IMG/VR virus record: IMGVR_UViG_3300006810_000064
Span: 1-52,017 of that record
DNA from: a virus
Strand: one strand, 5' to 3'
DNA length: 52,017 nt
In this document: positions 21,401 to 45,506 of the stretch, in pieces
Layout: each line of letters starts with the position of its first letter
Position numbering within the stretch: the first letter of the stretch is position 1
Notes under the pieces: generated by a model
Databases searched by the model: none
Told to the model about the DNA's origin: nothing
The model's input: only the letters and a program-made list of their open reading frames with translations
Translations under genes and position numbers: made by a program

Positions 21401-24400
21401 AAGAGAATATGGAAGGTATTGACAAGAGTAGAATTGTCCATTTAGGTAATTTCAATGGTGATGTACTTCAAAGTGGTAAGATAATAGAAGGAGAGATGCA
21501 GAAAGCACAGGTCCTACTTCCATCTAAATTCAAATTAGGTGGTAAACTTATTGACCTATTTGAAGAGTTTGATAATGATAAAGGTGATGGTGTTTACTTA
21601 AAAAGAGGTTCTGATGGAGTTGTTAGGGTAAAAGAGCACATGGTTGATAAGAAATTGTTAGAGCAGTTTACTTTCAGAATTCCAACATCCTCACATGGAC
21701 TTGGGTCATCTATTGAAGTTGTAGGTTTCTTACCTCCAGAAAGTGGTGACTTAATTGTTACACCTAAAGGCTTTATTGCTCAGATGGGACAAGATTTTGA
21801 TATTGATAGCTTAACAGCTTATCAGTATAATCATATTGTGATGGCTACAAATACTGAAAACTATTCAGAAGGTAGCATTCATTTATTGACAGAAGAAACC
21901 AGAGAGGCTTTTGTACAGGAGAAAGAATTCCTGTTGAACACACTGAGAGATGAGATTAAGAAGGATGGACTAGGGAAGATTATAGTTTCTGCAGCTCCAA
22001 CAGTGGAGAAACCAAATAATGCTTTGATGGCAACACTAGCTCTAGTCCAAGAGACTGGAGCCAGAACAGAGAAAGAGATACTTGATGAGATTGATTTCCA
22101 AAAATCAGAACTTAGAAAAGATTTTGATTTGAAATTACTTGAGAACAAGTTTATTGAGATACACAATTCAGTGTATTCAAATCCTCAGGCTCAGAAGCAG
22201 ATACAGAAAGTATTATCAATGGCAACAGCTGAACAACAAGCTGATGAAATCCAAGCTCTTCAAATAGGGTCAGGAAACTCATTTAATATTTTATCACCAA
22301 GGTACCAACAAATGAAACTTAATGCTGGTTCTACTGGTCAAGTTGCTATTGGTATCTATGCAAAAGGACTTACACTACATAGTTTGGTTCAACAAGCAAG
22401 TGCAGATGGTAGTCTAATTAGATTGGGTACAACAGACAGATTTGGAAAAGAGCATGTGAAGAAAGTAACAATTGGAAACTTGCATAGTGAAGGAGTTCTA
22501 GGACGAACAGATAGCATTAAATCTAAAGGAAAAGAATTTGACGGGTTTACAAGACGTATATCTACAATCTTAGATGAGAGAGCAAATACTGCAACAGATA
22601 ATGAGAAAGCACAAATATTAGGTAGAACAGGACTAAATTATAGAAGTGCTATTGGAGTTGATAGTTTATTATCCATGCTAGGCTTTGACCTTGAGTACAC
22701 TAGAATTACTAAGGATGAATATATAGAAGGAGCACCTTTCCACAGAAAGGCAGAGATAGATGGAAATTCAGTGTATTATTTAGAGCACTCTTTACCTTAC
22801 TTGTTACACTCACAGCCAATCATAAGAGAATACTTTGAGCTTATTGCTAAGAAAGGGTCTCAAACAACTGACTTTAGTGCAGATGCTAAAAAAGAGGCTC
22901 AACTTGCAATGCTTAAAAAATATGGAGAACAAGACCAAGAATTTTTTGATGGAAAAGTTGTAAGATGGGCACAAGATGGAGAGAAGAGAATTCCTCTAAG
23001 TGACCAGGATAACACTAAATTCACTTCTAAATTCTTAGCTGACCAAATAGAACTTAATGGAGCAGAGAATAAAACATCTCAGTTACAGATATTAGCTTTG
23101 TATGTTGATTTGATAAACCAATCAGAGAAACAGAGAGAGATGATGTCACATGTTGACTTACAGAACTTAGGAAAATCTATGTGGGAGTCTACAACAAGAG
23201 CTAAAGAATTTAGAAAATACTTCTATTCTGCACAGAATAGAGGAATGCTTGGAGCTGAAAAGCTAATAGGTAGAGTAGTTCGTCAATCAACAGACCCAAA
23301 TCAAATACCTTTAGGTGATGGTCTCATATTAGAGCCAACAACTAACCAGGGTGTTATGGTAGGTACTGCTTTAGGATTAAGTGAAGCACTGTTTACAAAT
23401 GTATTCCCTGCAAAGAATGTTGCTTTAAATAATATGATGGATGACTTAATTGCAAAGAGTAATGTTAATGTAGATAACATCAATACTCTTATTGATGCAA
23501 AAGAGAAAGTATTTCAAGAGGTTAAAAAATACTTAACCTCAGCAAAACAATTAGGTATCTTTGGTAAGAGTGCAAGTGAAGTTAGAAGAGAATTGATGAC
23601 AGATAGAGAAGGTAACCAATCCTTGAGTAGTTATATTGGTAACATGATGACTTCTAAAAGTACAGAACATGCAGATGGTATTCAAGCAGTACAAACCAAT
23701 TTGTTCCTAAACTTACTTAAAACAGTCAAAGGTGAAAATGGTAAGCCATCTTTATTGACCTTCAATAATAATGAATCATTTGAAGCTAATCAAGAAGCTA
23801 TCTATGCTTCCTTTAAGGAGCTGATAGCTGAAGATAAGACTTTACCACGGGTTATGAGAAATGGAAAATCTGAGTACTATTCTACTAGAATTCTAGCTCA
23901 AGAATTGATTGCATATTCTTATGCTACTGGAGGTGTTGTACAAGGAGCAGTTCAGTTCCACAAGTTCTTACCTATTGAGTATCTTGATGATATGACAAGG
24001 ACAAATAAGAGAGGTGTGACATCAACTATTAGTGAGAACATGAGAAAATTCAATTCTTTCCATAATGAAGTTCCATTACCAATGGAATTAGAACAGTTTG
24101 AAAGACAATATTTCCAGAATAATCCTGACAAGGTGCCACAGAGTAAAATGAAAGAGATAAAGTTAGAGGATGGCACAGTACTCTATGAGACTTTAGAAAA
24201 AGCTGGTGGGCAATACCTTGCTGTAAGACAACAAACAAAAAGCAAGTTGAAGTCAGACAAGTGGAAATTATATGAAAAAATTATAGTAGAGGACAGTGCA
24301 TCATCAAAACTATACAGAGAAATCAGTGTCTTAGGTGATACAGGAATGACTGAATATGAATTTGGTCTAGAAGAATTGTCAAGTGTGGTTAATGAAAAGG

Positions 24401-25461
24401 TAGCTCCAATACGAGATATTGATGCTTTAGAAATGGAGACCATATCAGATGAAAAAATGGGTGAAATTCCTGCTGATGGTAGTACAATAGTTTCTTTCTT
24501 AGATGCCATTGAGAATGGAGAGTATGGAGAATATGGTAATGTAAGAGAAATTGCTAAGTACTTAAAACAATTCGTAACAGATGACCAAGTGTTTACCTAT
24601 ACTAAGGCAGATGTTGCTGGTAGAGTTATAAATGGGCACTTAACTCTGAACCCTGATAACATACCCAACAGAAATATACTTGCTCCAACTTTTATCCATG
24701 AAGTAGCACATGTCATAACTCAGAAACTTGTAAATCAGCATTTAGATGAGTTTGGAGAGCTTAAGTCAGGAGCACCTGCAGAATTGGTAGGATTGAATAA
24801 TGTATTGACAGAATACAAGAAGCAAATTATAGCTGATAATCCTGTGGAGTGGGAAAAATTCCAAGAGAAATTAATTAAGTACAAAGAGGCAGCAAAACAG
24901 AATATACCTTGGGATGGTGTCTTCACACAGATGGAGCTTGATACTTTCTACCCTGCTACAAATCTACATGAATTCATAGCTACTAGTTTAGGTAACAATC
25001 AAGAGTTCATCAAGAAAGCTAAATCGATGTCTTACCTTGAAAGTGGACAGACTATTATGCAAAAATTTGGTTCTCTCATTACTAATTTCATAAAAAGAAT
25101 AGGTAAAATGCAGGGAATTCCAGAAAATAGCGTAGCTTTGCAAGCAATTCAAAGAAGTATGGGCGTAGTAGAAGCAGCAAACAGAGGAAGATTAGCAGAA
25201 ATTGCAGAAAAAGTTGAAGCTCAAAAAGAACCTGATTTAGCCCATGATGAAACAGCTCACCTAGTCGAGAAATTTAACCAACAAGAACCTGACTTTGATG
25301 AAAGTTTCTATCAAGGATGGGACCAAACTCCAGATAACTTAGGTGACCCAACTAAAGACAACACAACAGAAAATACAGGAGACCCAAGCAATGACATAGC
25401 TGATGAGAATTCAATCTCTATGTTACCTGTAATGATTAGAACTAAAAATAAATGTAATTAA
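12448..25461 (+). CDS. Giant virion RNA polymerase polyprotein with zincin-like protease domain
   Basis: A 4,337-residue single ORF. The catalytic centre is DFDID at residues 3116-3120 (bases 21793-21807), preceded by RIPTSSHGLG (from R3077), aligning with the RxPTxHxLG...NADFDGD layout of cellular RNAP beta-prime double-psi barrels. The same DFDID loop is the active site of the Cellulophaga phage phi14:2 gp66 polymerase. A Lys in the SAVKVGG segment (K2785) may belong to the other barrel. The C-terminus has a zincin motif, HEVAH at 4084-4088, with a later NLHEFIA (4172-4178) that can supply the third ligand. The N-terminal third has Gly/Ala-rich membrane-like stretches (about 365-420 and 635-665) and a Pro-rich linker (about 960-975). 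It is probably packaged, injected and transcribes early genes; the protease may cut the polyprotein. Confidence 0.9.
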   Translation: MDEFAIEVLKANGYDYDSGGIIDAEGNFLSSVELNGKTYTSEADPVLWEEAQQPQYRETGAPDPVQDFRGFEADPLGTALTPAQKENYPMYAQIQEEQGLPTYDDANIYEKEMERQAEEEMEDPYYGTLRELQEEGHEGINDELINKIKENEKFIAEVEAKDPSWNVNIREKDDTDEQIEDAAMYNVPGIAAGYIEKGVMGLVKWANSTFYGESAGMNGTKEEKLAYEKALQDRKEMKKPAARIMKAKIDEKLAELNPVWEEMSMLETIHPDNDIVRYAINELEQEKALIDNSIDEQWIFNPLSDKYTINTLTAGFQGVIDKYMHFQPLANKVTKGEELTENEQLAAEALGLQTKTQGMQLEQHWMHGLTKGTFDSAAFLYGGAVGRVAMKGVTKAVTTAASKQVGNLFGNIIGGSVNMTGQAILHPESHIRAIDKYYGSIAMDVDAEGKPVLTTDRRTYATLMEEMTQKEDELEEMLLTAKDPDMRRNLQAVLKSTQDIKNGLVEPETLANSIGYGFTSVLTENTIENYGLKIGKGLIKNPVTKKLASKNWVKSVAASRAAKGTGAALNKVDNLFMGVKRKFNAITGDGGSKLVGGNFEEMGEEVATQLVPVWGETDEEAIARKGELLELSFYGQVAGQTLLMGGLMKGVHAPAAGLSALQNSRNKDVKKARQAYKDLVKEFGKGNITEAETHELLMKAGGGKFTVQEYNNKINQLKAQGDFAGAADVERNKTFNIGKEMIKNGKGKQFVRDMNRLIANGTIPAESTPAVMEAVNEIKKMNGDMSKHGDLRNKDFVLELKSKQRYTANQKKKIKEEMTRLQGEEVSPQRDGSIKGLETALANIETFEGRLNKQLRLETSEAMRDKLQKEAEITQELVKNYKKHEGDKGTGYVKITRKEAIDKMEKKYGNTIQSSVKQMAKKNLDRYILNETIDEHMKKFEAMPANKPNETETKVDNQNPPEDGATPPPTSTPPAETQEVTAKQTKVKDHVDKLSKSIDEVTAQLEQQQTLFDDEGSLNLAAPDTNVPPTKEPDTDPAKDATLEQAELMDTAFFDDMPKASDGKFENEPFQAMVDAVKTRVKEMEEENGEAPTFDDYVDEMLENGDVEADVMKGHMRALGLAWDGAQLGKSNWKKSYNERYASMEAMLALDAAKRSNVPPKVKTDEEIVEEEKEQEQVAGKKTNSEPITYNPDTGEGSHVTPNKQKHYGTEHKANFSAIQYEEEITIDENGKEVRKKVNAPVPQANMESSVNWWDLVNPNKNNIGDKLIPTLLEGEELANTDVAVRDERGIQIPGKSETFEAWTLRTMEEKYPSLTFEQFQETQEYKDKVPMVYKDSNGSNVAYVPEVMWFNANSVGDPTDVEEIDLNNPTAYHQKLIDQNREQARALRNGILSGDVVGMEIADNLSMPPFIKMEKQDADGMPIPTAPLNQMHPDTRLVQMNPNGQFYGLDGVSLKDEHADIINYGDDKSGLGKMEMKQQGKAKSQVATNKGHYYALSFIGMKDGRKQYIAIELNRKKEDGLTDGAHKDDIETARWIAATNKITKFPNSPVGDNDTHPNHMTKTEAEALRRQILEVTGIDVKDKYADMLEARVAHHLGGFSKKTTFGKDTIGMLLGFNETAGTYTKPDSEWVSNMKFKFNAPMVTIKRNPDRSFEVKLVEITPKTVNGEKVTQAKNYEDFLKERLSSNVMGFNVGTEANPVFTAAPQQRYKLTPILKDKTLEDHKETFKQEVEDLKQDEKVEKKTTEVETKDAPVVADTKIIDKAKRKEAMTQAAALAKRLNLNIEDISEIDNLVVAEMATTEQVEKGILSTPGLTIKQEEQVVDWLFSQLSSKEGTYEDAKHRISGILTLNVEELNQSISDLQAFKDNPVVLQMILNMEQAVEQQTEVLNSLDELVAEAGLRAVNVDFVSEEFDVEEWEENIKDFSKGAGEVKSIDKVGTALKRIFAQVSDGQTGFMGLETFPGFKRMYDTVTLALSADTTLEPNFEQMMEILKKRKDSTPWMTPLIEALEASDKQTQNQFVYNTYQQKVYAKFAALSMKNKAIDSRVLDSNANEAKRQIQEKWRENFKRSPINNEGLIDKGALGVVIEEWNRWQEEGVEAQSDEVLQNFLSKFGIELSQGTWDALRANELNVSEGGGKLKVAEFKDLFSGLTPESSSNRTGFLFTNLVKYALLNESKKGDIEFYEATDNHPFKQMSTILNQLSELEAKYNPTYGGTSRYVAGKSVTEMEQFTYFYEQFKKLKNSAKGDKAEIAKLQNLSFSQDSFLLDLLTNDPVFAEQFQHGLIDLMALKELYKQSPLQAGIDELSGVDYRFTQRALFQDRKQGSERTVEGQDFDIRMAHMNTLTNSDKGRMMLLKTAVFDFYKQSGKAFKIEDGEVTFTEELNNLLYKQLVMPELRRIVNYINNGNKSTIDSYDAGATRFNILSELNTLTDANGLTFVEAIVAELDKNGGNVETTLTEIEKEFKGKSTKVLEQNVVREAKDNVKDISEFAKKKDQFNNADYLAKREGTVLENMLVAELDFTLNSMLTNMNYMQMMTGDPALYYKKHRSDEVAELNDSVAQEKMSQRLAINLGKRMAAMIAPGSVLADSHDNKYIQVFLDDMNGPTENLLDIIEMHYGEKAGDIQLSDGVSVREAVELTKKGTRDYVKQLEAEFPRIAEFIDIESTDAQEYTTLEEHLHVMDKQGRISQKLMTEIKDKIKKGEDLTKEQLDIVMQPIKPVYTGTQFDADNDINRMMYIKSSSFPLIPQLTKGRELDKLRVNMEEVEASTGKTVRAAYHSAVKVGGMVSENRIKSFDQPILPQNTLTLNREHFKIQQDVPFKSKEIQDDKVSMGTQIFKLLMGDGIMEMDGFMYQGKPVTGKQLQAEFHSVFAEMVGMKKDKFLRSLGYDENMETKDPVKTMQKLEALLKKEAKSRGFSKQDLKILDLVDGASGKTFKLPLWLTGNSNKYESMLNAMINNKIFKQKIPGNKFVTGSEAGFQVQENMEGIDKSRIVHLGNFNGDVLQSGKIIEGEMQKAQVLLPSKFKLGGKLIDLFEEFDNDKGDGVYLKRGSDGVVRVKEHMVDKKLLEQFTFRIPTSSHGLGSSIEVVGFLPPESGDLIVTPKGFIAQMGQDFDIDSLTAYQYNHIVMATNTENYSEGSIHLLTEETREAFVQEKEFLLNTLRDEIKKDGLGKIIVSAAPTVEKPNNALMATLALVQETGARTEKEILDEIDFQKSELRKDFDLKLLENKFIEIHNSVYSNPQAQKQIQKVLSMATAEQQADEIQALQIGSGNSFNILSPRYQQMKLNAGSTGQVAIGIYAKGLTLHSLVQQASADGSLIRLGTTDRFGKEHVKKVTIGNLHSEGVLGRTDSIKSKGKEFDGFTRRISTILDERANTATDNEKAQILGRTGLNYRSAIGVDSLLSMLGFDLEYTRITKDEYIEGAPFHRKAEIDGNSVYYLEHSLPYLLHSQPIIREYFELIAKKGSQTTDFSADAKKEAQLAMLKKYGEQDQEFFDGKVVRWAQDGEKRIPLSDQDNTKFTSKFLADQIELNGAENKTSQLQILALYVDLINQSEKQREMMSHVDLQNLGKSMWESTTRAKEFRKYFYSAQNRGMLGAEKLIGRVVRQSTDPNQIPLGDGLILEPTTNQGVMVGTALGLSEALFTNVFPAKNVALNNMMDDLIAKSNVNVDNINTLIDAKEKVFQEVKKYLTSAKQLGIFGKSASEVRRELMTDREGNQSLSSYIGNMMTSKSTEHADGIQAVQTNLFLNLLKTVKGENGKPSLLTFNNNESFEANQEAIYASFKELIAEDKTLPRVMRNGKSEYYSTRILAQELIAYSYATGGVVQGAVQFHKFLPIEYLDDMTRTNKRGVTSTISENMRKFNSFHNEVPLPMELEQFERQYFQNNPDKVPQSKMKEIKLEDGTVLYETLEKAGGQYLAVRQQTKSKLKSDKWKLYEKIIVEDSASSKLYREISVLGDTGMTEYEFGLEELSSVVNEKVAPIRDIDALEMETISDEKMGEIPADGSTIVSFLDAIENGEYGEYGNVREIAKYLKQFVTDDQVFTYTKADVAGRVINGHLTLNPDNIPNRNILAPTFIHEVAHVITQKLVNQHLDEFGELKSGAPAELVGLNNVLTEYKKQIIADNPVEWEKFQEKLIKYKEAAKQNIPWDGVFTQMELDTFYPATNLHEFIATSLGNNQEFIKKAKSMSYLESGQTIMQKFGSLITNFIKRIGKMQGIPENSVALQAIQRSMGVVEAANRGRLAEIAEKVEAQKEPDLAHDETAHLVEKFNQQEPDFDESFYQGWDQTPDNLGDPTKDNTTENTGDPSNDIADENSISMLPVMIRTKNKCN

Positions 25462-32100: not shown

Positions 32101-32667
32101 TTATGTACCTGTACTACCAAAGCCATCTTCTCCTCTATCATCCTTATAAGGGTCATGTCCTGATATCCATATTCTCTGTTGGTCAATTGGACCATTTTCC
32201 CTAATAAGTTCTATATCAGGTCTAGTAACTATTGCAGGAACTAATTGTGCAATCCTTTCATCTTTTTCTACTTTATTTAAGAAAGGTGTAGAATTGTATA
32301 ATATAATTCCTATTTCTCCTGTGTAGTCAGCATCTATGGTACCTGGACCATTAAGGACAGATAAGCCTCTCTTCAAAGCCATACCACTCCTAGCTCTCAC
32401 TTGTAGTTCCATATTCTCTGGTAACGCAGGATAAAGTCCTGTTCCAAATAATATTCTTTCAAGTGACCTAAGTTTAATATAACCTCTTTCATTGAAACCT
32501 TCCTGTACTTTCTTTAGGTTTTCAGGGTCAATTTCTCTATCACCTCTAAAGACCTTCAGTATCTTATGTGCTGTCACATCCAATCCTGAGGCTAGAGCTG
32601 ACCCATAAATAGGTCCAGTTCCTCCATCTTCGACTACAAATTTAATTGTGTTATTCTCCATATTCAA
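32101..32667 (-). CDS. dut: dUTP diphosphatase (trimeric dUTPase)
   Basis: A 188-residue protein with all five dUTPase motifs in order: ASGLDVTA (27-34), RARSGMA (91-97), GTIDADYTGEIG (109-120), RIAQL (138-142) and the C-terminal RGEDGFGSTGT arm (178-188). It hydrolyses dUTP to dUMP and pyrophosphate, keeping uracil out of DNA and feeding dTMP synthesis. The protein is longer than the ~150-residue type because of an insert between motifs 1 and 2 (about 40-80). The start overlaps the upstream small gene by 17 bases; a second ATG two codons later is an alternative. A uracil-DNA glycosylase is encoded at 45508-46218. Confidence 0.95.
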   Translation of the reverse strand: MNMENNTIKFVVEDGGTGPIYGSALASGLDVTAHKILKVFRGDREIDPENLKKVQEGFNERGYIKLRSLERILFGTGLYPALPENMELQVRARSGMALKRGLSVLNGPGTIDADYTGEIGIILYNSTPFLNKVEKDERIAQLVPAIVTRPDIELIRENGPIDQQRIWISGHDPYKDDRGEDGFGSTGT

Positions 32668-32883: not shown

Positions 32884-34743
32884 TTAAATTATTTCACAAG
32901 AACCTCCTGCACAAGCAACTGTATCTGAGACAGTTGTATTGTCATGAAGTTCTTTGATTAATGTTAAGTCAATAGGATTATCCTGTATGTACTTTAACTT
33001 GCGTTCAAAAACTTCATCACTTACCTCTTCAAAAGGAGCATTTTTATATGTTCCTCCATCAAAAGGTAGGACTGACAGACCATTAAAAGTGTGTCTATTA
33101 TTCCACATCCATTCACCCACATCATGCCACTCTTCAGGTTTAACAGAAACTGTTGCTGATACATTATTAGTGTTTGGTCCTCTTCTGTGCCCAGGGTGAA
33201 CCCAATTAACATTAAGTTCTTTGATTCTCCATAGGAAATCCAATGCAGACTCTTCATCTCTCATTATAGCATTGTCTGGTGCATTTTGAGGAATTCCAAT
33301 TACAGCACTGTTGACATCATACTCCATCACGGTGATTAGCTCAGGGTGATACTGTGTAAAGAAGTTGAATAAATCATCTCCAACTCTACATTGTATGTTT
33401 CTGATGTACTTAGGTGCATGCCATGCATGACACCCAGATGCTGTTCCAACTACACAGGATGTTGTTCCTGCAGGTTTGATAGTAGTTGTCCTAGCAGCTG
33501 ACCTAATATCTATGATTTGTGCTACCCTATGATTCTCTTTCATTCCTACTTCAACAGCTTGCTCTTTATCTAACCCTTCAAGGTTACCATCACCTATACC
33601 TGTTTGCCCAATACCTATCAATGCATCTTTCTCTGTATTTGTCTTCCAAATGTTTCTTAAATAATGAAAATCAGTGATGCCTGCCTGAAGGGTCCCAAAG
33701 AATGCTGCAACCCTAGCTCTGTCGTCTAAGTCTTCCTGTCCTTCAAGAGTCCCAGCATTAATCTCTGTTAAATTACAGAAAGTAAAAGGTCTCAAAGATA
33801 TCTCACAGCATGGGTTGGTTCCATATTCAGGGTCATTGGTAAAGTAAATACCTGGTTCACCTGAGTTAGAATCAACAATCATTTTCCAAAAAGCATCAAA
33901 TTCAGGCTTCTTAACCCTGTTTCTTAAGATGACTGCAGAGTTGTTAGCTCTTCCAAGCTCTGGATACAGTTCCCACCATTGTCCATACTTAGCTGTTACC
34001 ATCTCTTTATCATCCATAGAAAATAAAGCAATGAGTGCAGCTCTACGAATTCCACCTGCTAATACTGCATCAGCAATAAAGCAAGAAATTCGATGTACCT
34101 CAAAAGGTCTTAGCTTATCTCCATTATGTTTGTCATTTAATAAGGCTTCGATTTTGGTTAAGGCTATTCTAAGAGGCTCAGGTCCAGGAGCTTTACCACC
34201 AGCAGTGACAAGCATTGCACCTTTATCTCTAATATCAGAATAGTCAAACCTAGGCTTTACCTTAGTAATACCAAAGTAGGATTTCATTAATGCTTTGACA
34301 GCATCTGCCCATCCTTCAATAGAATCACCTATGAGAAACTTAGCTTGTTTTGTAGGTTTATGCACCTCTGGTAGTTTCTCAACATGGTGGAACTGAACAG
34401 AGTAACCTGCTCCTGTTCCACCAAGTAATAGAAACATTAATTCACTGAAAGCTCTATAATCATCCATAGGCATGTAAGCACAATTGTAACCACGAGCTTC
34501 ATTCTTAGCCATAGCAGGACCAGCAAATTGTAATGCTCTCATTGAAGGGAGCACATTCTTTGCATGGATATACCTTCCATTAGCTTGTATTTCCTCAGCA
34601 AGCATTGGGTATCTTTGTGTCATCATGTTGAGATACCTGTCAACGATTTCTTCCCAAGTTTCCCTTCTTTCAAGGTCTTCTCTGTACTTGGCGTATTTTG
34701 TGTAGACTACTACATCTGATAAAATTTTTTGTGTTTCATTCAT
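32884..34743 (-). CDS. Adenosylcobalamin-dependent (class II) ribonucleoside-triphosphate reductase
   Basis: A 619-residue monomeric class II reductase, shorter than the ~740-residue Lactobacillus leichmannii enzyme. All five key cysteines are present with matching spacing: C88 (GYNCAY, like C119), C312 in NPCCE (N310, C312 thiyl site, E314; like N406, C408, E410), C323 (11 residues on, like C419), and C611/C616 in the tail (ACAGGSCEII, like C731/C736). It reduces ribonucleotides to deoxyribonucleotides without oxygen, using vitamin B12 coenzyme from the host. Its ATG shares one base with the GroEL stop (TAATG), so translation is coupled. The enzyme needs no separate activase or small subunit, which suits an anaerobic host. 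Confidence 0.93.
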   Translation of the reverse strand: MNETQKILSDVVVYTKYAKYREDLERRETWEEIVDRYLNMMTQRYPMLAEEIQANGRYIHAKNVLPSMRALQFAGPAMAKNEARGYNCAYMPMDDYRAFSELMFLLLGGTGAGYSVQFHHVEKLPEVHKPTKQAKFLIGDSIEGWADAVKALMKSYFGITKVKPRFDYSDIRDKGAMLVTAGGKAPGPEPLRIALTKIEALLNDKHNGDKLRPFEVHRISCFIADAVLAGGIRRAALIALFSMDDKEMVTAKYGQWWELYPELGRANNSAVILRNRVKKPEFDAFWKMIVDSNSGEPGIYFTNDPEYGTNPCCEISLRPFTFCNLTEINAGTLEGQEDLDDRARVAAFFGTLQAGITDFHYLRNIWKTNTEKDALIGIGQTGIGDGNLEGLDKEQAVEVGMKENHRVAQIIDIRSAARTTTIKPAGTTSCVVGTASGCHAWHAPKYIRNIQCRVGDDLFNFFTQYHPELITVMEYDVNSAVIGIPQNAPDNAIMRDEESALDFLWRIKELNVNWVHPGHRRGPNTNNVSATVSVKPEEWHDVGEWMWNNRHTFNGLSVLPFDGGTYKNAPFEEVSDEVFERKLKYIQDNPIDLTLIKELHDNTTVSDTVACAGGSCEII

Positions 34744-36368
34744 TATTGGAATTGAGTTGTAGTAACATCATCTTTATTTATGATTGCATAGTTACTAGTT
34801 AATAAGGTGCCAACTATGGACACTGAACTCTCTAAAGCAATTCGCACTACTTTAACTGGGTCTATAACCCCATCCTCAATTAATGAAGGAACATAATTTT
34901 CTGTTCTGACATTGTAGCCTGTCCCAGAAGGTCTGATTTCACACTCAAGTTGAATAACTTCAGGTATCAAACCAGCATTTATCAAAATTTGATTGTATGG
35001 AGCTTTTACTGCTTCACACAATGCTTGGTATCCAGCTTTTACACCAGGTTTAATAGTGTCTTTAAAGACCTTTGCTTCAAATTTCATTGCAGCTTCTACT
35101 AGAGCTGTACCACCACCTGGAACTATTCCTTCAGCTAGTGCAGCTTTAACAGCATGTTTACAATCTTCTACTCTATCAAGTAACTCTTTTGCTTCCTCAG
35201 AAGAGTTGGCTCCAACTTTCACCATAGCCACTCCACTAGTTAGCTTACCAAGTCTTGTTTCAAGTATATCAACTTCATACTTGTTACCTTTATGATGTAC
35301 TAATTGGTCTTGGATGTGCTGAGCTCTCTTAAGAATATCCTCTTCTTTTCCTGTACCACCAATAAAGGCAGTATCTGTGCTAGTTATCTCAGCTTTCTCC
35401 ATCTCACCTAACCACATTGGGTTAAATTGGTCCTGTCCATCTTCAATCACCATCTCCTTTGTTACTAGTTCACCACCAAAAAGGATAGCCATATCACGAA
35501 GTCTTTCAACTCTCTTGTTTCCATAACCAGGTGCCATAACAATAGCAGACCTTACATTTCCACGGATATGATTAGCTGCTAAGCCACGAAGAGCACTTTC
35601 ATTTACATCTTCTGCCACAAATATAATTGGTCTATTTTTTTGACCAGCATATTCCACAGCTTCATAAATCTGTTTGAACTGAGATATCTTACCATCATAA
35701 AGAAAAACATAAGGATTTTCAAAGTCAACCTTCATTTTGATTGTGTCTGTCACACAATAAGGTGACAAATACCCTCTGTCAAACTGCATACCTGTAATCA
35801 TATTCATTGTAGTTTCCATACCACTACCCTGTGTCACAGAGATAACTCCATGAACTCCAAGCTTTTTGTAGATTTTTGTAATAGTCTCTGCAATATCTTC
35901 CTCTCCATTTGAAGAGATTAAAGCTACTGACTTAAGCTCAGGGCTTTCAGGTGTAACCATTTTCTTCATACCTTCAAGATATTTAAGAATATCTATCCTG
36001 GCAATCTTTAAACCTGTGTTGAAATCACCTGCATTTACACCTAAGTCTAACTGTTTGCGTCCAACATTATAAATGGCTTGTGCCAATACAGTAGCTGTTG
36101 TAGTTCCATCTCCAGCTAGATTGTTTGCTTTCAAAGCAACGTTCTTAACTAGATTGGCACCAATTGCCTCTATTGTATTAGGGTCAAACTCAATCTCTTC
36201 TGCTACACTTACACCATCTTTAGTAATACTGATAGCTCCAAATGCATTTTTTACGATAACAGTATTTCCCATTGGTCCCAAAGTGTCCTTAACAGGGTCT
36301 GCCAACTGATTTATTCCTCGTTGAATCCCATTTCTGAATTCTTCATTACTTACTATTTTTTCTGTCAT
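34743..36368 (-). CDS. groEL: GroEL-type chaperonin (phage-encoded, full length)
   Basis: A 541-residue group I chaperonin, colinear with E. coli GroEL (548 residues). ATPase residues are kept: TKDGVSVA (D51), GDGTTTATVLA (D87), the hinge/ATP Asp D402 (DRVED), the P-loop-like GIVPGGGTAL (415-423) and VIDPVKV (501-507). The apical domain has the substrate/GroES helix pair region (QFKQIYEAVEYAG, NESALRGLAANHIRG, then IVMAPGYG). It ends with TTTQFQ and lacks the Gly-Gly-Met tail. The gene follows groES with a one-base TAATG overlap and leads with the same overlap into the RNR gene. The likely role is folding large capsid, tail or polymerase proteins. Sequence drift throughout suggests long residence in phage, not a recent host copy. 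Confidence 0.96.
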   Translation of the reverse strand: MTEKIVSNEEFRNGIQRGINQLADPVKDTLGPMGNTVIVKNAFGAISITKDGVSVAEEIEFDPNTIEAIGANLVKNVALKANNLAGDGTTTATVLAQAIYNVGRKQLDLGVNAGDFNTGLKIARIDILKYLEGMKKMVTPESPELKSVALISSNGEEDIAETITKIYKKLGVHGVISVTQGSGMETTMNMITGMQFDRGYLSPYCVTDTIKMKVDFENPYVFLYDGKISQFKQIYEAVEYAGQKNRPIIFVAEDVNESALRGLAANHIRGNVRSAIVMAPGYGNKRVERLRDMAILFGGELVTKEMVIEDGQDQFNPMWLGEMEKAEITSTDTAFIGGTGKEEDILKRAQHIQDQLVHHKGNKYEVDILETRLGKLTSGVAMVKVGANSSEEAKELLDRVEDCKHAVKAALAEGIVPGGGTALVEAAMKFEAKVFKDTIKPGVKAGYQALCEAVKAPYNQILINAGLIPEVIQLECEIRPSGTGYNVRTENYVPSLIEDGVIDPVKVVRIALESSVSIVGTLLTSNYAIINKDDVTTTQFQ

Positions 36369-36640
36369 TATAAAATTATTAATATGTCCTTAAAGTTCAT
36401 AACAATGTAATCGATTCCATCAATTGTTATGTCTTTTCCATCATAATACTCTTTATACTTTACTTTAGGTTTTGAAGCTAGTTGCATTTGCACTGCCTCA
36501 GGAACAGATTCCCCAAACCTAATTACAGTACCTTCAAATTTGTTTACAGTTTCTTCTTCTGGCATATAAACGCCATTGACTGTATCCACTTTTTTAGGTA
36601 ACTGTACCATCACATTTTCATGTATTACATTCATACTCAT
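36368..36640 (-). CDS. groES: GroES-type co-chaperonin
   Basis: A 90-residue protein with the GroES layout: an N-terminal strand (IHENVMVQLPKK), a mobile-loop position with hydrophobic VYM at 24-26 (GroES has IVL there), the barrel strand EGTVIRFGE (36-44), KPKVKYKEYYDG (58-68) and the C-terminal DITIDGIDYIVMNFKDILIIL. It would cap the phage GroEL ring. Its start forms an ATGA overlap with the upstream gene's TGA, and its TAA overlaps the groEL ATG by one base. Divergence in the loop, VYM for IVL, suggests tuning to its own GroEL. Together the two genes make a complete phage chaperonin. Confidence 0.92.
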   Translation of the reverse strand: MSMNVIHENVMVQLPKKVDTVNGVYMPEEETVNKFEGTVIRFGESVPEAVQMQLASKPKVKYKEYYDGKDITIDGIDYIVMNFKDILIIL

Positions 36641-36819
36641 TTTTTAGTTTTTGTGTATTCTTCCAAAATCTCTACTGCCACAACTTCATTGTTAGGAAAG
36701 AAGTCTCTAAGAGCCTTCTCATATCCTGAACAATATTGTGGTGTACCTTCTACTCTTTGTGAATCTAAGACTCTGTTGTTAAACTGTCCTACATCCATTA
36801 CTTGAAATAAATATGTCAT
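36637..36819 (-). CDS. Small protein of unknown function upstream of groES
   Basis: A 60-residue ORF ending in TGA, which overlaps the groES ATG as ATGA, so the two are probably translationally coupled; it overlaps the gene before it in the same way. It begins MTYLFQVMDVGQFNNRVLDS and ends in a charged helix (EILEEYTKTKK). Secondary structure is unclear; it has no hydrophobic span. No family recognised. Confidence 0.5.
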   Translation of the reverse strand: MTYLFQVMDVGQFNNRVLDSQRVEGTPQYCSGYEKALRDFFPNNEVVAVEILEEYTKTKK

Positions 36820-37010
36820 AATTCTTTATTTATTGTGGCTTTCATTGTTATTTCAACTGCTGTGATATAATCAAATGAAACTGTTTTCTTATCTGTTCCC
36901 ACAGCTAATGAAATATTTATGTCATGCCTGTTTGATAATTCATCGATGTTATGACAAGCTTTCTGTAAAAGTTCTCTTGTCTCTTGTATTAATTGTACTG
37001 TATTGTCCAT
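36816..37010 (-). CDS. Small protein of unknown function
   Basis: A 64-residue ORF 2 bases after the UvrD-like helicase stop and overlapping the next small gene by 4 bases. The first ~30 residues form a helix (VQLIQETRELLQKACHNIDELSNR); the rest is beta-like (INISLAVGTDKKTVSFDYITAVEITMKA). One Cys, no motif. Function unknown. Confidence 0.5.
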   Translation of the reverse strand: MDNTVQLIQETRELLQKACHNIDELSNRHDINISLAVGTDKKTVSFDYITAVEITMKATINKEL

Positions 37011-37012
37011 AT

Positions 37013-38488
37013 TTATATGTTTAAATAATATAATTCTTTCTTTGCTCTACTACGAGCTACATACTTAAGATTCTGCTCTTGAATCAACTGTTCAGGAGAA
37101 GTAGCAAACTTTGAGGGTATTAAGTTCTCATTTAAGATATAGACTACATCTGCTTCTAGCCCTTTGGCTTTGTGTATTGTACACAGCATAGCAGCTTTAT
37201 CTTTAACTTTGAAGAGATTCTGTACCTTATCCAATAGCACTTTGATTACTTCATAATCTGTGCTCATGTTAGCCACCAGGGCTTGGAAGTTAGAATAGTT
37301 CTCCTTAAAAACATAAAGTTTTATTCTTCCTTTGTCTGATTTATCTTTTTGTAATTTGTCTAGTTCGTAGCCCAATTCAATTTTAGTCCCACCAACAGTG
37401 TAGTTGGCATAAGGCTTTAAGAATCTAGTAATAGATGCGAGAATATCCTCACCTTTAATATATGCAGGTATGCCCAATCCTAACAATTGGAAGTACAATT
37501 TAATAATTGGACTTGTATTTCTACATATAATCATAGAGTCTGGCTTTACTTCGTTTACATCTGTTATAACTCCTACTATACCTTTTTCTTCTGTCCCATA
37601 CTCCATCACATCATAAACTTCATTAGTTTCATCGATGATATTTTGAGCACATCTGTAACAGATATCTAAAGGTAGTTCTTCTACTTCACCCATGCTTTTA
37701 AACTTGTCAAAAGATGAAGAATAAGCTCCACTAAATCCATAAATTGATTGGTTTCTGTCCCCAACAGCAATCCATTTGATAATGGTCCCTTGGTTTATCA
37801 GATTTCTAACTAATTTATGTTGTGCTAGATTGAGGTCTTGAGCTTCATCTACCATTAGATAATAAGGTTCTACTGGAATGTTGAAGTTTTCTCTAGCTGC
37901 TAAGTAAATCATATCATTGAAGTCAACGATAATGTTTTTTCCTTTATAACTCGCTTCCCTAAGATTTACAAAGCTAGCCCACAAAGATACAATTTCTTCG
38001 TGAACTACAAAACTTTTATCCATACTTTCTAGATGATTTCTTATTTCTTTTATATCATCAGTCAAGAATAGACGAGCTATGTCATTCATATCCATGAGAG
38101 TATAGCTTAATTTTAGCTTTTCTTCCCAAGACATTTTTCTGAAAATTGTTTTATGTTTTGCTTGTACAGACTTCAGTATATCAAAATTCTTCCCATTATT
38201 AATATGGACTCTTGCTCCTTTATAGTGAGCTCTAATAGCTGACAACCCTAAAGAATGCATTGTTAGTGCTTTACCATGGCTCAGTCCTTTCTCATCAATC
38301 TTGCTTTGAATTTCTTCCTGCACAGATTTGTTAAAGGCTAGAAACAAAGTTCTATACTTACAATATTGTAGCAGCTCAAGTAAGGTTGTTGTCTTACCTG
38401 AGCCAGCTACTGCATTGATTAAAATGTTCTTATCAGTGTTGTTCCATACATTAAATATCTTCTCTTGTTTTTCACTTGCTTTGAACAT
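37013..38488 (-). CDS. UvrD/PcrA-like superfamily 1 DNA helicase
   Basis: A 491-residue SF1A helicase. Motif I is AVAGSGKTTT (26-35, K32), motif Ia LFLAFNKSVQEEI (48-60), motif II MVDEAQDLN (212-220), motif III WIAVGDRNQSIYGFSGA, and the C-terminal CTIHKAKGLEADVVYILN (motif V) and YVARSRAKKELYYL (motif VI). It is shorter than UvrD (~720) and keeps a minimal insert set, close to phage UvrD-like proteins. It likely unwinds or translocates on ssDNA during replication or recombination. It starts 12 bases after the XRE regulator stop. Helicase identity is sure; its exact role is not. Confidence 0.93.
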   Translation of the reverse strand: MFKASEKQEKIFNVWNNTDKNILINAVAGSGKTTTLLELLQYCKYRTLFLAFNKSVQEEIQSKIDEKGLSHGKALTMHSLGLSAIRAHYKGARVHINNGKNFDILKSVQAKHKTIFRKMSWEEKLKLSYTLMDMNDIARLFLTDDIKEIRNHLESMDKSFVVHEEIVSLWASFVNLREASYKGKNIIVDFNDMIYLAARENFNIPVEPYYLMVDEAQDLNLAQHKLVRNLINQGTIIKWIAVGDRNQSIYGFSGAYSSSFDKFKSMGEVEELPLDICYRCAQNIIDETNEVYDVMEYGTEEKGIVGVITDVNEVKPDSMIICRNTSPIIKLYFQLLGLGIPAYIKGEDILASITRFLKPYANYTVGGTKIELGYELDKLQKDKSDKGRIKLYVFKENYSNFQALVANMSTDYEVIKVLLDKVQNLFKVKDKAAMLCTIHKAKGLEADVVYILNENLIPSKFATSPEQLIQEQNLKYVARSRAKKELYYLNI

Positions 38489-41419: not shown

Positions 41420-41973
41420 TTTGTTGTTTTTACTAGTTCTTTAAATGTTTTGAAGGTCATGACAAGTAGCCTATCTTCTGCAGTAGGAAGATAAAGCATC
41501 ATACCTTCAGGACTTCTCCATAGTTCTTCTTCATAGTTCCAACCTCTTTTCTGTCCTTCCTGAACAGGCATACCATCAACATCGATATCTGCTTTAGGAA
41601 ATAGCTTTCTAAAGTTTTCAGTTCTCATAAAGACCAACTCATCATAGATACTCTTCTTTTTTCCACGCCCAGTATCTTTTTTGTGTATGAGGATATTCAC
41701 TTTCTTGTGTATATCATCATAAGGTGGAAATAGCAAAGGTAAACGCTCACGTATAATGTCTAAAGTCTTTACTTCATTAAGACCTTTTGCGTAACCTGCT
41801 TTAATCTGTACATTAAAAGGAAGGAAGTTTAAATCCACACCAGCATCATCTAACATTCTATTAGATGCTCTAGAGGTTTTACAGAAGGTAAAGCCAAGGT
41901 CCTCTCTGAAGACCTTAGCATAATACCGTTCTGCGTTACTACCTTTTCTCTTATTACTAGCTCCTCTGCTCAT
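41410..41973 (-). CDS. Holliday-junction-resolvase-like PD-(D/E)XK nuclease
   Basis: A 187-residue basic protein. The start SRGASNKRKGSNAERYYAKVFRED has the early Glu (E15) of the Hjc-type core, followed by GVDLNF (D47) and VQIKAG (Q56-x-K58), together the E/D/QxK catalytic set of PD-(D/E)XK nucleases. The rest is an unfamiliar C-terminal part with many Lys/Arg. It likely cuts branched DNA before packaging. It overlaps the rIIB gene by 17 bases and is followed by the zinc-knuckle gene. Family call from the motif spacing; the exact substrate is unsure. Confidence 0.72.
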   Translation of the reverse strand: MSRGASNKRKGSNAERYYAKVFREDLGFTFCKTSRASNRMLDDAGVDLNFLPFNVQIKAGYAKGLNEVKTLDIIRERLPLLFPPYDDIHKKVNILIHKKDTGRGKKKSIYDELVFMRTENFRKLFPKADIDVDGMPVQEGQKRGWNYEEELWRSPEGMMLYLPTAEDRLLVMTFKTFKELVKTTKWE

Positions 41974-43147
41974 GCTTGAGTTTTAACAAGGATTTGATAT
42001 CATCCAATCTTGCAGTAATACGAGTTCTGCTAAGTTCTGGGATGACAGGTACATCAATAGTGTAAGCAGAAACCTCCTTATCACTCTTCTCTCCTGCATA
42101 AGATATGATATCAATGAAGTTATCTTCAAATCCATCTTCAATATCTTCATCCATGATATTTCCATTTTCGTCAAAACCTACAATACCAATTGGATAATAG
42201 GCACAAACTCTCATCTTACCATAGCTGTCTTGTGGTGGTACTGCTACAACATCAGCTGGGTTAACAAGACATCTAAGTCCTGTGTCACCAAAATAGTTGT
42301 TTTGTAACCAAGATTTCCCTGCTACGTGAAGTCCACGAGAACAAGTATTATTTTGGTTAGTATCACACCTAGCTCTGTCCATAGTTACGGGCTCTCCAAT
42401 TCTAATTCTGAATTTGCCTGTGTAACCATCAGTATAGACGGGTCCTGCTTCTTCATCTGAAAGACCATCATATAGACATTGTAAATTTCCATATTCTTCT
42501 TCCATTTGACTGCGTCTATTCTCACTTTTTGTACAAGTAAGCTCACCTTCAATAAGACCAATGTAATAATCTTTAGCAGCTTTCTTTTGCTTAAATCTGA
42601 TATTTGTAAAAGAATCTGTAATAAACTTCACTACATCTGGTCCATAGTTATATTTGGTGTTACCCATAGAATGAACTTTAACATTTCTATAAGCTACAAA
42701 TAAACCTGAAGCAGAAATACTCATCCCATATCTGTGCAGGAACCAAAATAGGTTCTGTCTTGCAGCAGGGTCTAGGTTCATAGAGGCAAGAGTCCAAAAG
42801 TTTAAGTAAGTAGCTAATAACTCTAGGTCCTTAGCAACTTCTGCATTCCAAATTGCAACAGCCAGGTCTTCAGGCAAAGACAATTGGGAAATAGAGGTAA
42901 CATAAATTGATGCTCCTCTTACAGATAAATACTCAGACCTATCAAAGTTATCAAGCATATCTTGCTTGCTTCTGATTTCTTCCTTCATTATCTGATAGTT
43001 AGGAGTCATCAGGTTCCTAACTACTTCTTCATCATACTGGTTTTCCAATATGGTTTCGTACATTTCATCTGTACATCTGTTTGTTGTTAACAAACTACCA
43101 TCATCAAATACAATGGTCAAACTGGTATTAATCTTAGATATTTTCAT
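41957..43147 (-). CDS. rIIB: rIIB-like protein
   Basis: A 396-residue protein resembling T4 rIIB as found in crAss-like phages. The characteristic block is near residues 265-310: CSRGLHVAGKSWL, FGDTGLRCLVNPADVVAVP and YGKMRVCAYYPIG, plus GLFVAYRNVK (around 147) in the middle. It pairs with rIIA in membrane-linked exclusion, lysis timing or protection from host systems; the biochemical role is unknown even in T4. It ends with TAG inside the resolvase-like start and its first bases overlap the end of rIIA by 14. Confidence 0.85.
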   Translation of the reverse strand: MKISKINTSLTIVFDDGSLLTTNRCTDEMYETILENQYDEEVVRNLMTPNYQIMKEEIRSKQDMLDNFDRSEYLSVRGASIYVTSISQLSLPEDLAVAIWNAEVAKDLELLATYLNFWTLASMNLDPAARQNLFWFLHRYGMSISASGLFVAYRNVKVHSMGNTKYNYGPDVVKFITDSFTNIRFKQKKAAKDYYIGLIEGELTCTKSENRRSQMEEEYGNLQCLYDGLSDEEAGPVYTDGYTGKFRIRIGEPVTMDRARCDTNQNNTCSRGLHVAGKSWLQNNYFGDTGLRCLVNPADVVAVPPQDSYGKMRVCAYYPIGIVGFDENGNIMDEDIEDGFEDNFIDIISYAGEKSDKEVSAYTIDVPVIPELSRTRITARLDDIKSLLKLKHEQRS

Positions 43148-45506
43148 CTTCTTCTATTAATTTATAAATTGTTTCTTTCTTTGCTTTAACCACAGCTTTT
43201 ACACTTGGTCTAAAAATCTTTCTTGCTAGGACATAATCTGTCAACAAATTGATTCTTCTTTCTGGTATTCTACTACCATTAGTAAAATCTAACAAGAATA
43301 AGGCAGCTTCAAGGTCTTTTCTGTTCTTTTCAAACAGACCTCTAACTTCTTCATTAAAGTAATTACTCTCTAGGGCAACTGCATATATTTCTTCAGCTAG
43401 AGCTTTTCTAGGGTCTCCACCTAAATAATACTCATACTTCTCTTGATGTGCATAAAGTACATCGACTACACCTTTTAGCTTTCTTGAGATATCTCCTAAA
43501 TTCTGGATATTATACATATCCTTTAAACGAGGATACTCTGCTTTAAGATGATGAGCAGTTGCAATGTTTCTAAACAGTTTGTGTTTTGTGTCCATAAAAT
43601 CATTTATATTTACATAGCTTTCTATATGTGTGATTAACTTTACTTTTGATGGAGCAATTTCAACCATGTTTGGTCTAACTTGGCTTTTGAACATCCCAAA
43701 TAAGTCCCTCAACTTTTCTGCATCATCTGTTCCTTTAGCTGCATAAATAGTTAACTTCTTGTGCCTCTTCTGTAAATCCTTCATCTTGTAAGGTGTAGAA
43801 TCAGAAGTAATATCATACCCGTGATAAGCAAATCTTAGCTCATGAACATTTACATTCTGAGACCAATCAAAGCCTACTTTTTTGATTTTACCACGCTTAG
43901 CTTTATCAGCTGCCTTAGTATCAGCAATCCACTTTTTAGGCACCTTTGCCATTGTAAAATGTGGAATTTTTCCTATGTTAGGTAGAGTAGCATTTACAAG
44001 AACTTTGAATATTTTCATATCAAACTCTCCTCCATGCTCTGGCTTCAGATATCCTTTGTTGATTCTATTAGCAAGATTCTCAGCATCTTCTTTCAATTTT
44101 TCAATTGCTCTCTTGATACCTTTTCTAGGATTCTCATACTTTAAGAAAATACTCTCCTCTTTGAAAACCTCTCTAATATACCTTTTAGTGATATTATTAA
44201 AGTTTCCAATATCAGCAAAGAAAGCTCTGTCAAACCTTGACTTCAACCAATCTATGCTTATATAATGGTTTGTATATCTAATTTTACCATTATTCAGCTC
44301 ATAGGTTTGGTAAATTGAAGTGTTACTCTGAGATAAATTCTTAGCCATAAACTTGAAGTTCTTTTCATCATAGTGGACACCATTCAGAGTATAATTTTTC
44401 TTGAAGGTCCCATACTTTAACTTTACGTCATAATCATTGATACCTTTAAGAAGTGTTACACTACCTTTCTCATTAATTGCCTCTATGTATTCTCCCAACT
44501 TATCAAAGTTCTTTGTGCTTTCCTTAGCTACAATGTCTGCAATTTCCTCTAAAGCTAAATCTAGTTTTGCTTCAATAGTTTCGATATTCTTTTGATTATA
44601 CAATATCTCTTCCCTATTTGGAGTAACTGCTAAGTCACCTATCTCAAAGATTAATGATATAGGATACTCAGCAACTTTCTGTGCATAGTGCTTCCCAAGT
44701 GCATCGATTCTTAAAGGATATCTTACCTTCCCTAACAATAGATTAATCTGTTCTGTCCCATCTAAAGAATTTACCCAAAAGTTTTTATACTTATGAATAG
44801 AAAAGTTATTGTACTCTTTGTCTATTTCAGCCCAGTGCACTCTGTTATACCTATATATATTGTTATCTTCACCATCTTCTAATACAGATAGTGATGGAGC
44901 AACAATATATAGATTCTCAAAGTAGACTAACTGTGATTTAATTGCATTACAAAAGTTGTTATAATCTCCATCTCTTACTTGCATCTTAACCTCAACACCA
45001 TTTCTCTCATCAGTGTCAACAGAAGTCATCAAATCGATAGAGATAGTGTTACCGTCCTTGTACATCATGTAGATATACTTGATACCATCATAAACTGAGG
45101 TAATATGCACCACATCAGAGTAGGCTAGAGCTGAAAATCTTCCAATTCCAAAACCACCTATTTGGTCATTATCAGCTCTTTTAGTTGAGCTACCAATATT
45201 CCTATAAATAGTGTTGAATCTCTCTGGGCTTAGCCCTACACCAAAATCTTGAATTCTACAATAAAAATCTCCTTCAGGGTCTTTTAACAGCTCCAAGATA
45301 ACTGGGTCATCCACACCTGCTTCCATGTGTGAATCCCAAGCATTACTCACAGTCTCTCTAATAAATGATTCAATTGGCTTTGAATATAAGTTTGTAGAGA
45401 GAATTGTGACTATGAAGTCTATGTTATTTACGTCTAACGAGACTGTATTTTTACTGATGTCACCTGTCTGCTTTACATCACTTACTAAATTTGTTTCAAA
45501 TTTCAT
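43134..45506 (-). CDS. rIIA: rIIA-like protein with GHKL ATPase domain
   Basis: A 790-residue protein. The N-terminal GHKL/HSP90-type ATPase fold is clear: IRETVSNAWDSH (E51, N55, D58), QDFGVGLS (D87, G89, G91), IYRNIGSSTKR (100-110) and GGFGIGRFSAL (117-127). The remaining ~550 residues are a transducer-like beta/alpha region (PNREEILYN is a typical GHKL-transducer turn) and a helical C-terminus. It partners with rIIB encoded directly downstream. In T4 rIIA is membrane-associated and affects exclusion and lysis; the mechanism is not established. Two bases separate it from the uracil-DNA glycosylase stop upstream. Confidence 0.88.
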   Translation of the reverse strand: MKFETNLVSDVKQTGDISKNTVSLDVNNIDFIVTILSTNLYSKPIESFIRETVSNAWDSHMEAGVDDPVILELLKDPEGDFYCRIQDFGVGLSPERFNTIYRNIGSSTKRADNDQIGGFGIGRFSALAYSDVVHITSVYDGIKYIYMMYKDGNTISIDLMTSVDTDERNGVEVKMQVRDGDYNNFCNAIKSQLVYFENLYIVAPSLSVLEDGEDNNIYRYNRVHWAEIDKEYNNFSIHKYKNFWVNSLDGTEQINLLLGKVRYPLRIDALGKHYAQKVAEYPISLIFEIGDLAVTPNREEILYNQKNIETIEAKLDLALEEIADIVAKESTKNFDKLGEYIEAINEKGSVTLLKGINDYDVKLKYGTFKKNYTLNGVHYDEKNFKFMAKNLSQSNTSIYQTYELNNGKIRYTNHYISIDWLKSRFDRAFFADIGNFNNITKRYIREVFKEESIFLKYENPRKGIKRAIEKLKEDAENLANRINKGYLKPEHGGEFDMKIFKVLVNATLPNIGKIPHFTMAKVPKKWIADTKAADKAKRGKIKKVGFDWSQNVNVHELRFAYHGYDITSDSTPYKMKDLQKRHKKLTIYAAKGTDDAEKLRDLFGMFKSQVRPNMVEIAPSKVKLITHIESYVNINDFMDTKHKLFRNIATAHHLKAEYPRLKDMYNIQNLGDISRKLKGVVDVLYAHQEKYEYYLGGDPRKALAEEIYAVALESNYFNEEVRGLFEKNRKDLEAALFLLDFTNGSRIPERRINLLTDYVLARKIFRPSVKAVVKAKKETIYKLIEEDENI

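Follow-up and report, generated by a model that had tools for sequence, protein, structure and literature searches.

A complete, strongly diverged groES-groEL pair in a putatively crAss-related, Fpv-like phage

Some bacteriophages carry genes for both GroES and GroEL (PMC7185714, citing Marine et al. 2017). GroEL was reported in 2017 from 36 of 78 environmental genomes of the phi38:1/IAS-virus group (PMC5332604), the chaperonins of immuto-like phages adjoin nucleotide-metabolism genes (PMC11348598), and the GroEL of phi38:1 has been detected by mass spectrometry with methylated lysines, which means that it is made during infection (PMC13288928). The chaperonins of phages EL, OBP and AR9 function without a co-chaperonin (PMC9598537), and that of EL has 22% identity to Escherichia coli GroEL (PMC7185714). 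Here we describe an adjacent groES-groEL pair in IMG/VR virus record IMGVR_UViG_3300006810_000064, a single contig of 52,017 bases that we refer to throughout as the window. The record holds no further contig, so the window is very likely a genome fragment. The pair is a well-supported further example of the known phage GroES and GroEL pairs and is ordinary in kind; judged from its sequence, it is likely, and we say so with good confidence, to form a functional, phage-dedicated group I chaperonin system.

Sequence features and conservation of the pair

Open reading frame (ORF) calls, the sequence itself, Pfam and PHROGs agree on a complete GroES of 90 amino acids and a complete GroEL of 541 amino acids that overlap by one base, as an initial annotation of this DNA had proposed. 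The junction reads TTATAATGACAGAA, the final A of the groES stop codon TAA being also the A of the groEL ATG, and this overlap suggests that translation of the two genes may be coupled. GroEL matches Pfam Cpn60_TCP1 (PF00118, E=2.3e-52) over profile positions 1-489 of 490, with the equatorial-intermediate-apical architecture present from end to end, and matches the PHROGs groEL profile at E=3e-130. Its best match in the PDB is a reconstructed ancestral Fibrobacteres-Chlorobi-Bacteroidetes chaperonin (392.6 bits); scores are 345 bits to E. coli GroEL, 345-393 bits to bacterial GroEL and 101 bits to the chaperonin of phage EL. The ATPase residues D51, D87 and D402 are retained, as had been claimed: their E. 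coli counterparts are D52, D87 and D398, and the other nucleotide-pocket residues tested (K51, G32, P33, T30, T89-T91, G414-416, N479 and D495) are likewise conserved.

Other GroEL positions have changed throughout the window clade. In all five of its GroELs, E386 is replaced by S, K or R, with loss of the R197-E386 ion pair; D83 is replaced by N and K327 by S, N, D or A, with loss of the D83-K327 ion pair; and E461, at the ring-ring interface, is replaced by I, N or S. R452 is altered in two of the five and kept in three, and V464 is kept. A Flavobacterium GroEL retains E386, D83, K327 and E461. Loss of a K207-E255 pair was dropped as clade-specific evidence, since Flavobacterium GroEL lacks K207 too. 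Within the GroES-binding groove, Y199, Y203, L237 (as V), E238 and L259 are kept, and L234, A241, V263/V264 and F204 are changed. The window GroEL ends in ...NKDDVTTTQFQ, without a Gly-Gly-Met repeat. Such a tail is common in bacterial GroEL but not universal, and hence is not decisive for group I status.

GroES matches Pfam Cpn10 (PF00166, E=6.9e-11) across 85 of its 90 residues and the PHROGs GroES profile at E=6e-9. Its AlphaFold2 (AF2) model is a beta-barrel with a predicted local distance difference test score (pLDDT) of 84.1, falling to 57 at residues 21-30, the position of the mobile loop; a short helix is predicted at residues 48-54, in the place of the E. coli roof hairpin. A PDB fold search with this model returned 27 matches at E<=0.001, all of them GroES/Cpn10, an outcome favored by the inclusion of bacterial GroES in the input alignment. 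By tblastn, the window GroES had no match among phages even at E=0.1; pairwise search is therefore blind to such a GroES, and profiles are needed. The loop has the sequence NGVYMP, against GGIVLT in E. coli, with the hydrophobic tripeptide VYM (residues 24-26) at the IVL position. Relatives have VYM, VYV, VLL or VIQ, the unrelated Flavobacterium phage elemo has LYL and Bacteroidota mostly have III; by this comparison VYM reads as a conservative hydrophobic variant. The initial annotation had taken VYM and the missing Gly-Gly-Met tail as marks of a specialized pair. Both features are present, but VYM is conservative and tail loss is common among the phage GroELs compared.

The same pair occupies the same place in four relatives, whose GroELs have 71% (L106), 67% (L109), 67% (L104) and 66% (L002/L003) identity to that of the window, and the groES/groEL junction among relatives is -4, -1, 0 or +1 nucleotides. 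Pairwise ratios of nonsynonymous to synonymous substitution (dN/dS) within the clade are 0.10-0.24 for GroEL and 0.14-0.36 for GroES, rough values given that dS is near saturation. Both genes are under purifying selection. Because relatives at 66-71% GroEL identity keep both genes in order and dN/dS is low, groES and groEL are genuine genes and not chance ORFs. The pair is present in all sampled members of the window clade, fragments aside, at a fixed spot in the core replication block, and is missing from near relatives such as Flavobacterium phage Fpv3. We examined co-occurrence in relatives found by a shared helicase gene, seeking GroEL and GroES in whole records with Pfam profiles. Each record with one of the two proteins also had the other, and the remaining records lacked both. 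Among helicase-clade records of at least 32 kb, six carried both proteins and 11 carried neither (Fisher p=8e-5, uncorrected for shared ancestry).

Near relatives without the pair, Fpv3 among them, carry in the same downstream block a lone protein of about 93-107 amino acids (phrog_15861, "unknown function"). Three members match the GroES PHROG at E of about 1e-4 and another at 0.014; one member matches Pfam Cpn10 at 0.0014, and hhalign against bacterial GroES gives E=4.7e-5 (probability 68). The AF2 model of the lone protein is poor (pLDDT 64.6) and gave no PDB match at E<=0.001. Seven viral records, counting Fpv3 once, encode the protein and lack the pair, and no record has both (p=0.03). 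These matches suggest that it is probably, though this is not proven, a lid-only co-chaperonin of the T4 gp31 kind.

Genomic setting and affiliation of the phage

The pair lies in an operon-like block ordered UvrD helicase, two small ORFs, groES, groEL, ribonucleotide reductase and dUTPase (Table 1); the giant virion genes are on the other strand. The two small ORFs have no Pfam match. The block is one of replication and nucleotide metabolism and is away from the head genes, and the proposal that the pair folds the 4,337-residue polymerase or the capsid is speculation. That 4,337-residue protein (12448-25461, plus strand) has a DFDID motif at residue 3116 and fits an earlier reading as a giant RNA polymerase. 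Adjacent rIIA and rIIB lysis-inhibition homologues lie at 41957-45506 on the minus strand, where the sister phage G007 and Fpv3 have other genes. In the sister phage G008 alone, a 144-amino-acid ORF is inserted between groES and groEL (L113:18382-18839). Another sister phage has a 171-amino-acid ORF, HD-phosphohydrolase-like by eye, between groEL and ribonucleotide reductase (L002:11618-12133), which is not in the window.

Table 1. Coordinates of the chaperonin block in the window and of phrog_15861 loci in Fpv3-like phages without GroEL
Feature	Position	Strand	Description and support
groES	36368..36640	-	co-chaperonin, 90 aa, ATG start; Pfam Cpn10, AF2 model, PDB fold matches
groEL	34743..36368	-	group I chaperonin, 541 aa, ATG start; Pfam Cpn60, PHROG groEL, residue map
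Stop/start overlap TAATG, 1 nt	36366..36370	-	sequence
Two small ORFs (60 and 64 aa)	36637..37010	-	between helicase and groES; ORF list; 64-aa ORF conserved in relatives
UvrD-like helicase	37013..38488	-	marker gene for relatives; Pfam UvrD 1.7e-25
Ribonucleotide reductase	32884..34743	-	directly downstream of groEL, also with a 1-nt overlap; PHROG 5.3e-115
dUTPase	32101..32667	-	same block; Pfam dUTPase 2.5e-12
phrog_15861	L116:13829-14110	+	
phrog_15861	L018:9138-9419	-	
phrog_15861	L114:14636-14917		
phrog_15861	L120:4568-4882		
phrog_15861	L124:13356-13676		
phrog_15861	L133:11292-11576		
phrog_15861	L117:13773-14051		

The DnaB-like protein of the window has 54% identity to those of Fpv-group phages of Flavobacterium psychrophilum, with crAss-like Bacteroides phages also among its matches, and the matches of a second window protein are restricted to Fpv phages. 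The portal of a 105-kb sister contig (G001) has 30% identity to the portal of the Crassvirales phage cr111_1 (E=1e-46). Because of these matches the window phage appears, on sound grounds, to be crAss-related, Fpv-like and close to Fpv3. Formal membership of Crassvirales under the International Committee on Taxonomy of Viruses (ICTV) is not established, because Fpv3 is classed as Fipvunavirus, outside the order. The nearest isolate relatives have F. psychrophilum as host, and the host of the window virus is probably a member of the Flavobacteriaceae.

Function, origin and rival explanations

In the explanation that we prefer, groES and groEL would be co-translated from one overlapping message, GroEL would assemble into ATP-driven rings of seven subunits to which unfolded phage proteins bind, and GroES of the phage would cap these rings to make a folding chamber. 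An ancestor of the phage lineage would have acquired the genes from a Flavobacteriaceae host, and the pair in the window branch would then have diverged until its two halves probably work best together and not with those of the host, a mutual preference to which the divergence from bacteria points (about 41% identity for GroEL and 20-28% for GroES). We infer folding activity, partner specificity and phage-protein clients from replication or virion assembly.

Some of our observations, on both mechanism and history, weigh against this explanation. In E. coli GroEL, D83-K327 and E461 stabilize the apo state or the pairing of rings. The R197-E386 pair also stabilizes the apo state (PMC9598537). 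Because these typical ion pairs and inter-ring contacts are changed, the window GroEL may work through a different cycle from its E. coli counterpart. The losses would weaken ring pairing and allostery at positions that Flavobacterium GroEL keeps, and GroEL might by now be holdase-like or single-ring, as in OBP and AR9, and GroES would then have been retained to serve an altered cycle; the single-ring OBP chaperonin likewise does not retain the R197-E386 pair (PMC9598537), and the absence of a Gly-Gly-Met tail would fit. We regard this as quite unlikely, given that GroES is co-inherited without exception, whereas EL, OBP and AR9 need no co-chaperonin (PMC9598537), that V464 is kept, as is R452 in three of five, that the window GroEL scores far closer to bacterial GroEL than to that of phage EL, and that the nearby E391 could stand in for E386. 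Alternatively, the two systems might mix, the phage GroES capping host GroEL in the manner of T4 gp31 and host GroES serving the phage GroEL, so that the pair supplements the host machine. The loop tripeptide, still hydrophobic, and the kept groove residues would allow such exchange, and the lone GroES-like protein of relatives without GroEL would have to use host GroEL; the changed groove positions, the diverged GroES loop and the strict co-inheritance, which suggests mutual dependence of the phage GroES and GroEL, make it unlikely here. That the pair is passive cargo, an accessory for host stress tolerance with no role in folding phage proteins, is very improbable: it is absent from Fpv3 and other near relatives and so is non-essential to the wider group, yet it is kept across the sampled clade despite its divergence, at its fixed spot among core replication genes and under purifying selection.

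The best bacterial matches of the window GroEL are from Bacteroidota, at 41-43% identity, and the GroELs of the sister phages G007 and G008 have 68% and 65% identity to those of Flavobacteriaceae and kin. Recent host capture or contamination, the near-identical host copy that the initial annotation had named as its refuting case, is rejected: the top bacterial identity is 42.7%, and the same locus recurs in four further viral genomes, all distinct (at least four related contigs). In the full GroEL tree of 65 rows, the window clade (support 100/99, long stem) lay outside all bacteria, as did several other long phage branches, and the program gave a long-branch warning. In a reduced tree that left out twelve other phage rows, mostly long-branched, the window clade grouped with G007/G008 (90/85), and the two together nested within Flavobacteriaceae with support of 100/100. 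The first tree had implied a GroEL lineage that predates the bacterial groups, a reading set aside after the reduced tree as probable long-branch attraction. The window GroEL would thus descend from within the Flavobacteriaceae, though after long divergence, and this placement depends on omitting the other long phage branches. The simplest history looks like a single capture from Flavobacteriaceae, after which the pair changed quickly in the window branch. A second capture is kept in view because the pair sits at a different position in G007/G008, 7-8 kb from the helicase versus about 1 kb elsewhere, an arrangement that either two captures or a later relocation would explain. The window clade would then hold an ancient phage-lineage chaperonin and G007/G008 a more recent one from Flavobacteriaceae, in keeping with the separation of the two groups in the full tree. 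This we find somewhat unlikely, in that the groups unite once the long phage branches are removed, an approximately unbiased (AU) test on the full tree fails to reject a single clade (p=0.351), although this is no proof of one, and the phages are sisters in the helicase tree, where the seven that bear the pair form one clade (82/87).

Beyond the single capture of a dedicated pair lies a bolder picture, that of a self-contained cage, dependent on GroES and possibly single-ring, that is orthogonal to the host system and adapted to phage clients, in a phage group that alternates between the whole machine and a GroES-like lid; as a whole we consider it highly doubtful. The lineage bears on why some phages carry a whole folding machine, others the lid alone and others neither. 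It provides a natural series: some members have neither component, some have a lone GroES-like protein, the sisters have a pair much like that of the host, and in one clade the pair has strongly diverged. Comparing them could reveal at what point a phage ceases to depend on host GroEL and whether its pair turns orthogonal. If the pair were orthogonal, laboratories would gain a second, compact chaperonin system in which to fold difficult phage proteins.

Comparison with known chaperonins

In INPHARED, 285 records match the window GroEL, a few of which are bacterial contigs filed as phage. The 500-kb Salmonella contigs AFYI01000007.1 and AGRM01000005.1 are listed there under phages, which inflates the tally of "phage" GroEL. 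Thirteen of 16 GroEL-bearing phage records examined whole, a hand-picked and not random spread that includes the window relatives G001 and G002, also carry a Cpn10 gene. The initial annotation held full pairs to be uncommon in phages, a view that gives way to this count and to the earlier statement that some phages have both (PMC7185714). Added here are the strict co-occurrence of the two genes, the apparent single-capture history, the clade-wide residue losses and the lone GroES-like protein, never found together with the pair.

The pair resembles that of Flavobacteriaceae in gene order, ATPase residues and predicted GroES fold. It differs in its low GroEL identity, its overlapping genes, its missing Gly-Gly-Met tail, the loss of E386, D83, K327 and E461, and a GroES roof region altered by the predicted short helix. 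Flavobacterium phages immuto and elemo, Cellulophaga phage phi38:1, Bacteroides phage DAC16 and ctfjg026 also carry the pair in one genome, adjacent or one gene apart; their GroELs have 30-39% identity to that of the window, and order and spacing vary, with GroEL first in elemo and ctfjg026.

The Crassvirales phages phi14:2 and cr111_1 (Steigviridae) likewise have a GroEL in a crAss-like phage, but it lies near terminase, portal and capsid genes and has diverged far (29.6% identity for cr111_1). No Cpn10 was found above the Pfam cut-off in cr111_1, nor by the GroES PHROG profile in phi14:2, and the neighbors of their GroEL genes found no support as a hidden GroES. A Crassvirales "putative 10kDa chaperonin" present in 50 phage records, near the terminase gene (L012:12849-13259 in cr111_1 and L161:7264-7653 in phi14:2), is weakly GroES-like (PHROG E=1.8e-4, no Pfam match), and g096 of phi14:2 resembles it by eye.

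T4 gp31 and RB49 CocO are, like the window GroES, phage co-chaperonins of GroES fold, and gp31 (1g31) is a weak structural match; T4 and RB49 provide the lid alone and use host GroEL. The jumbo phages EL, OBP and AR9 share with the window a phage-encoded chaperonin, and OBP shares the absence of the R197-E386 pair (PMC9598537). Unlike theirs, the window GroEL is a typical group I chaperonin, nearer to bacterial GroEL than to that of EL, and is encoded together with a GroES.

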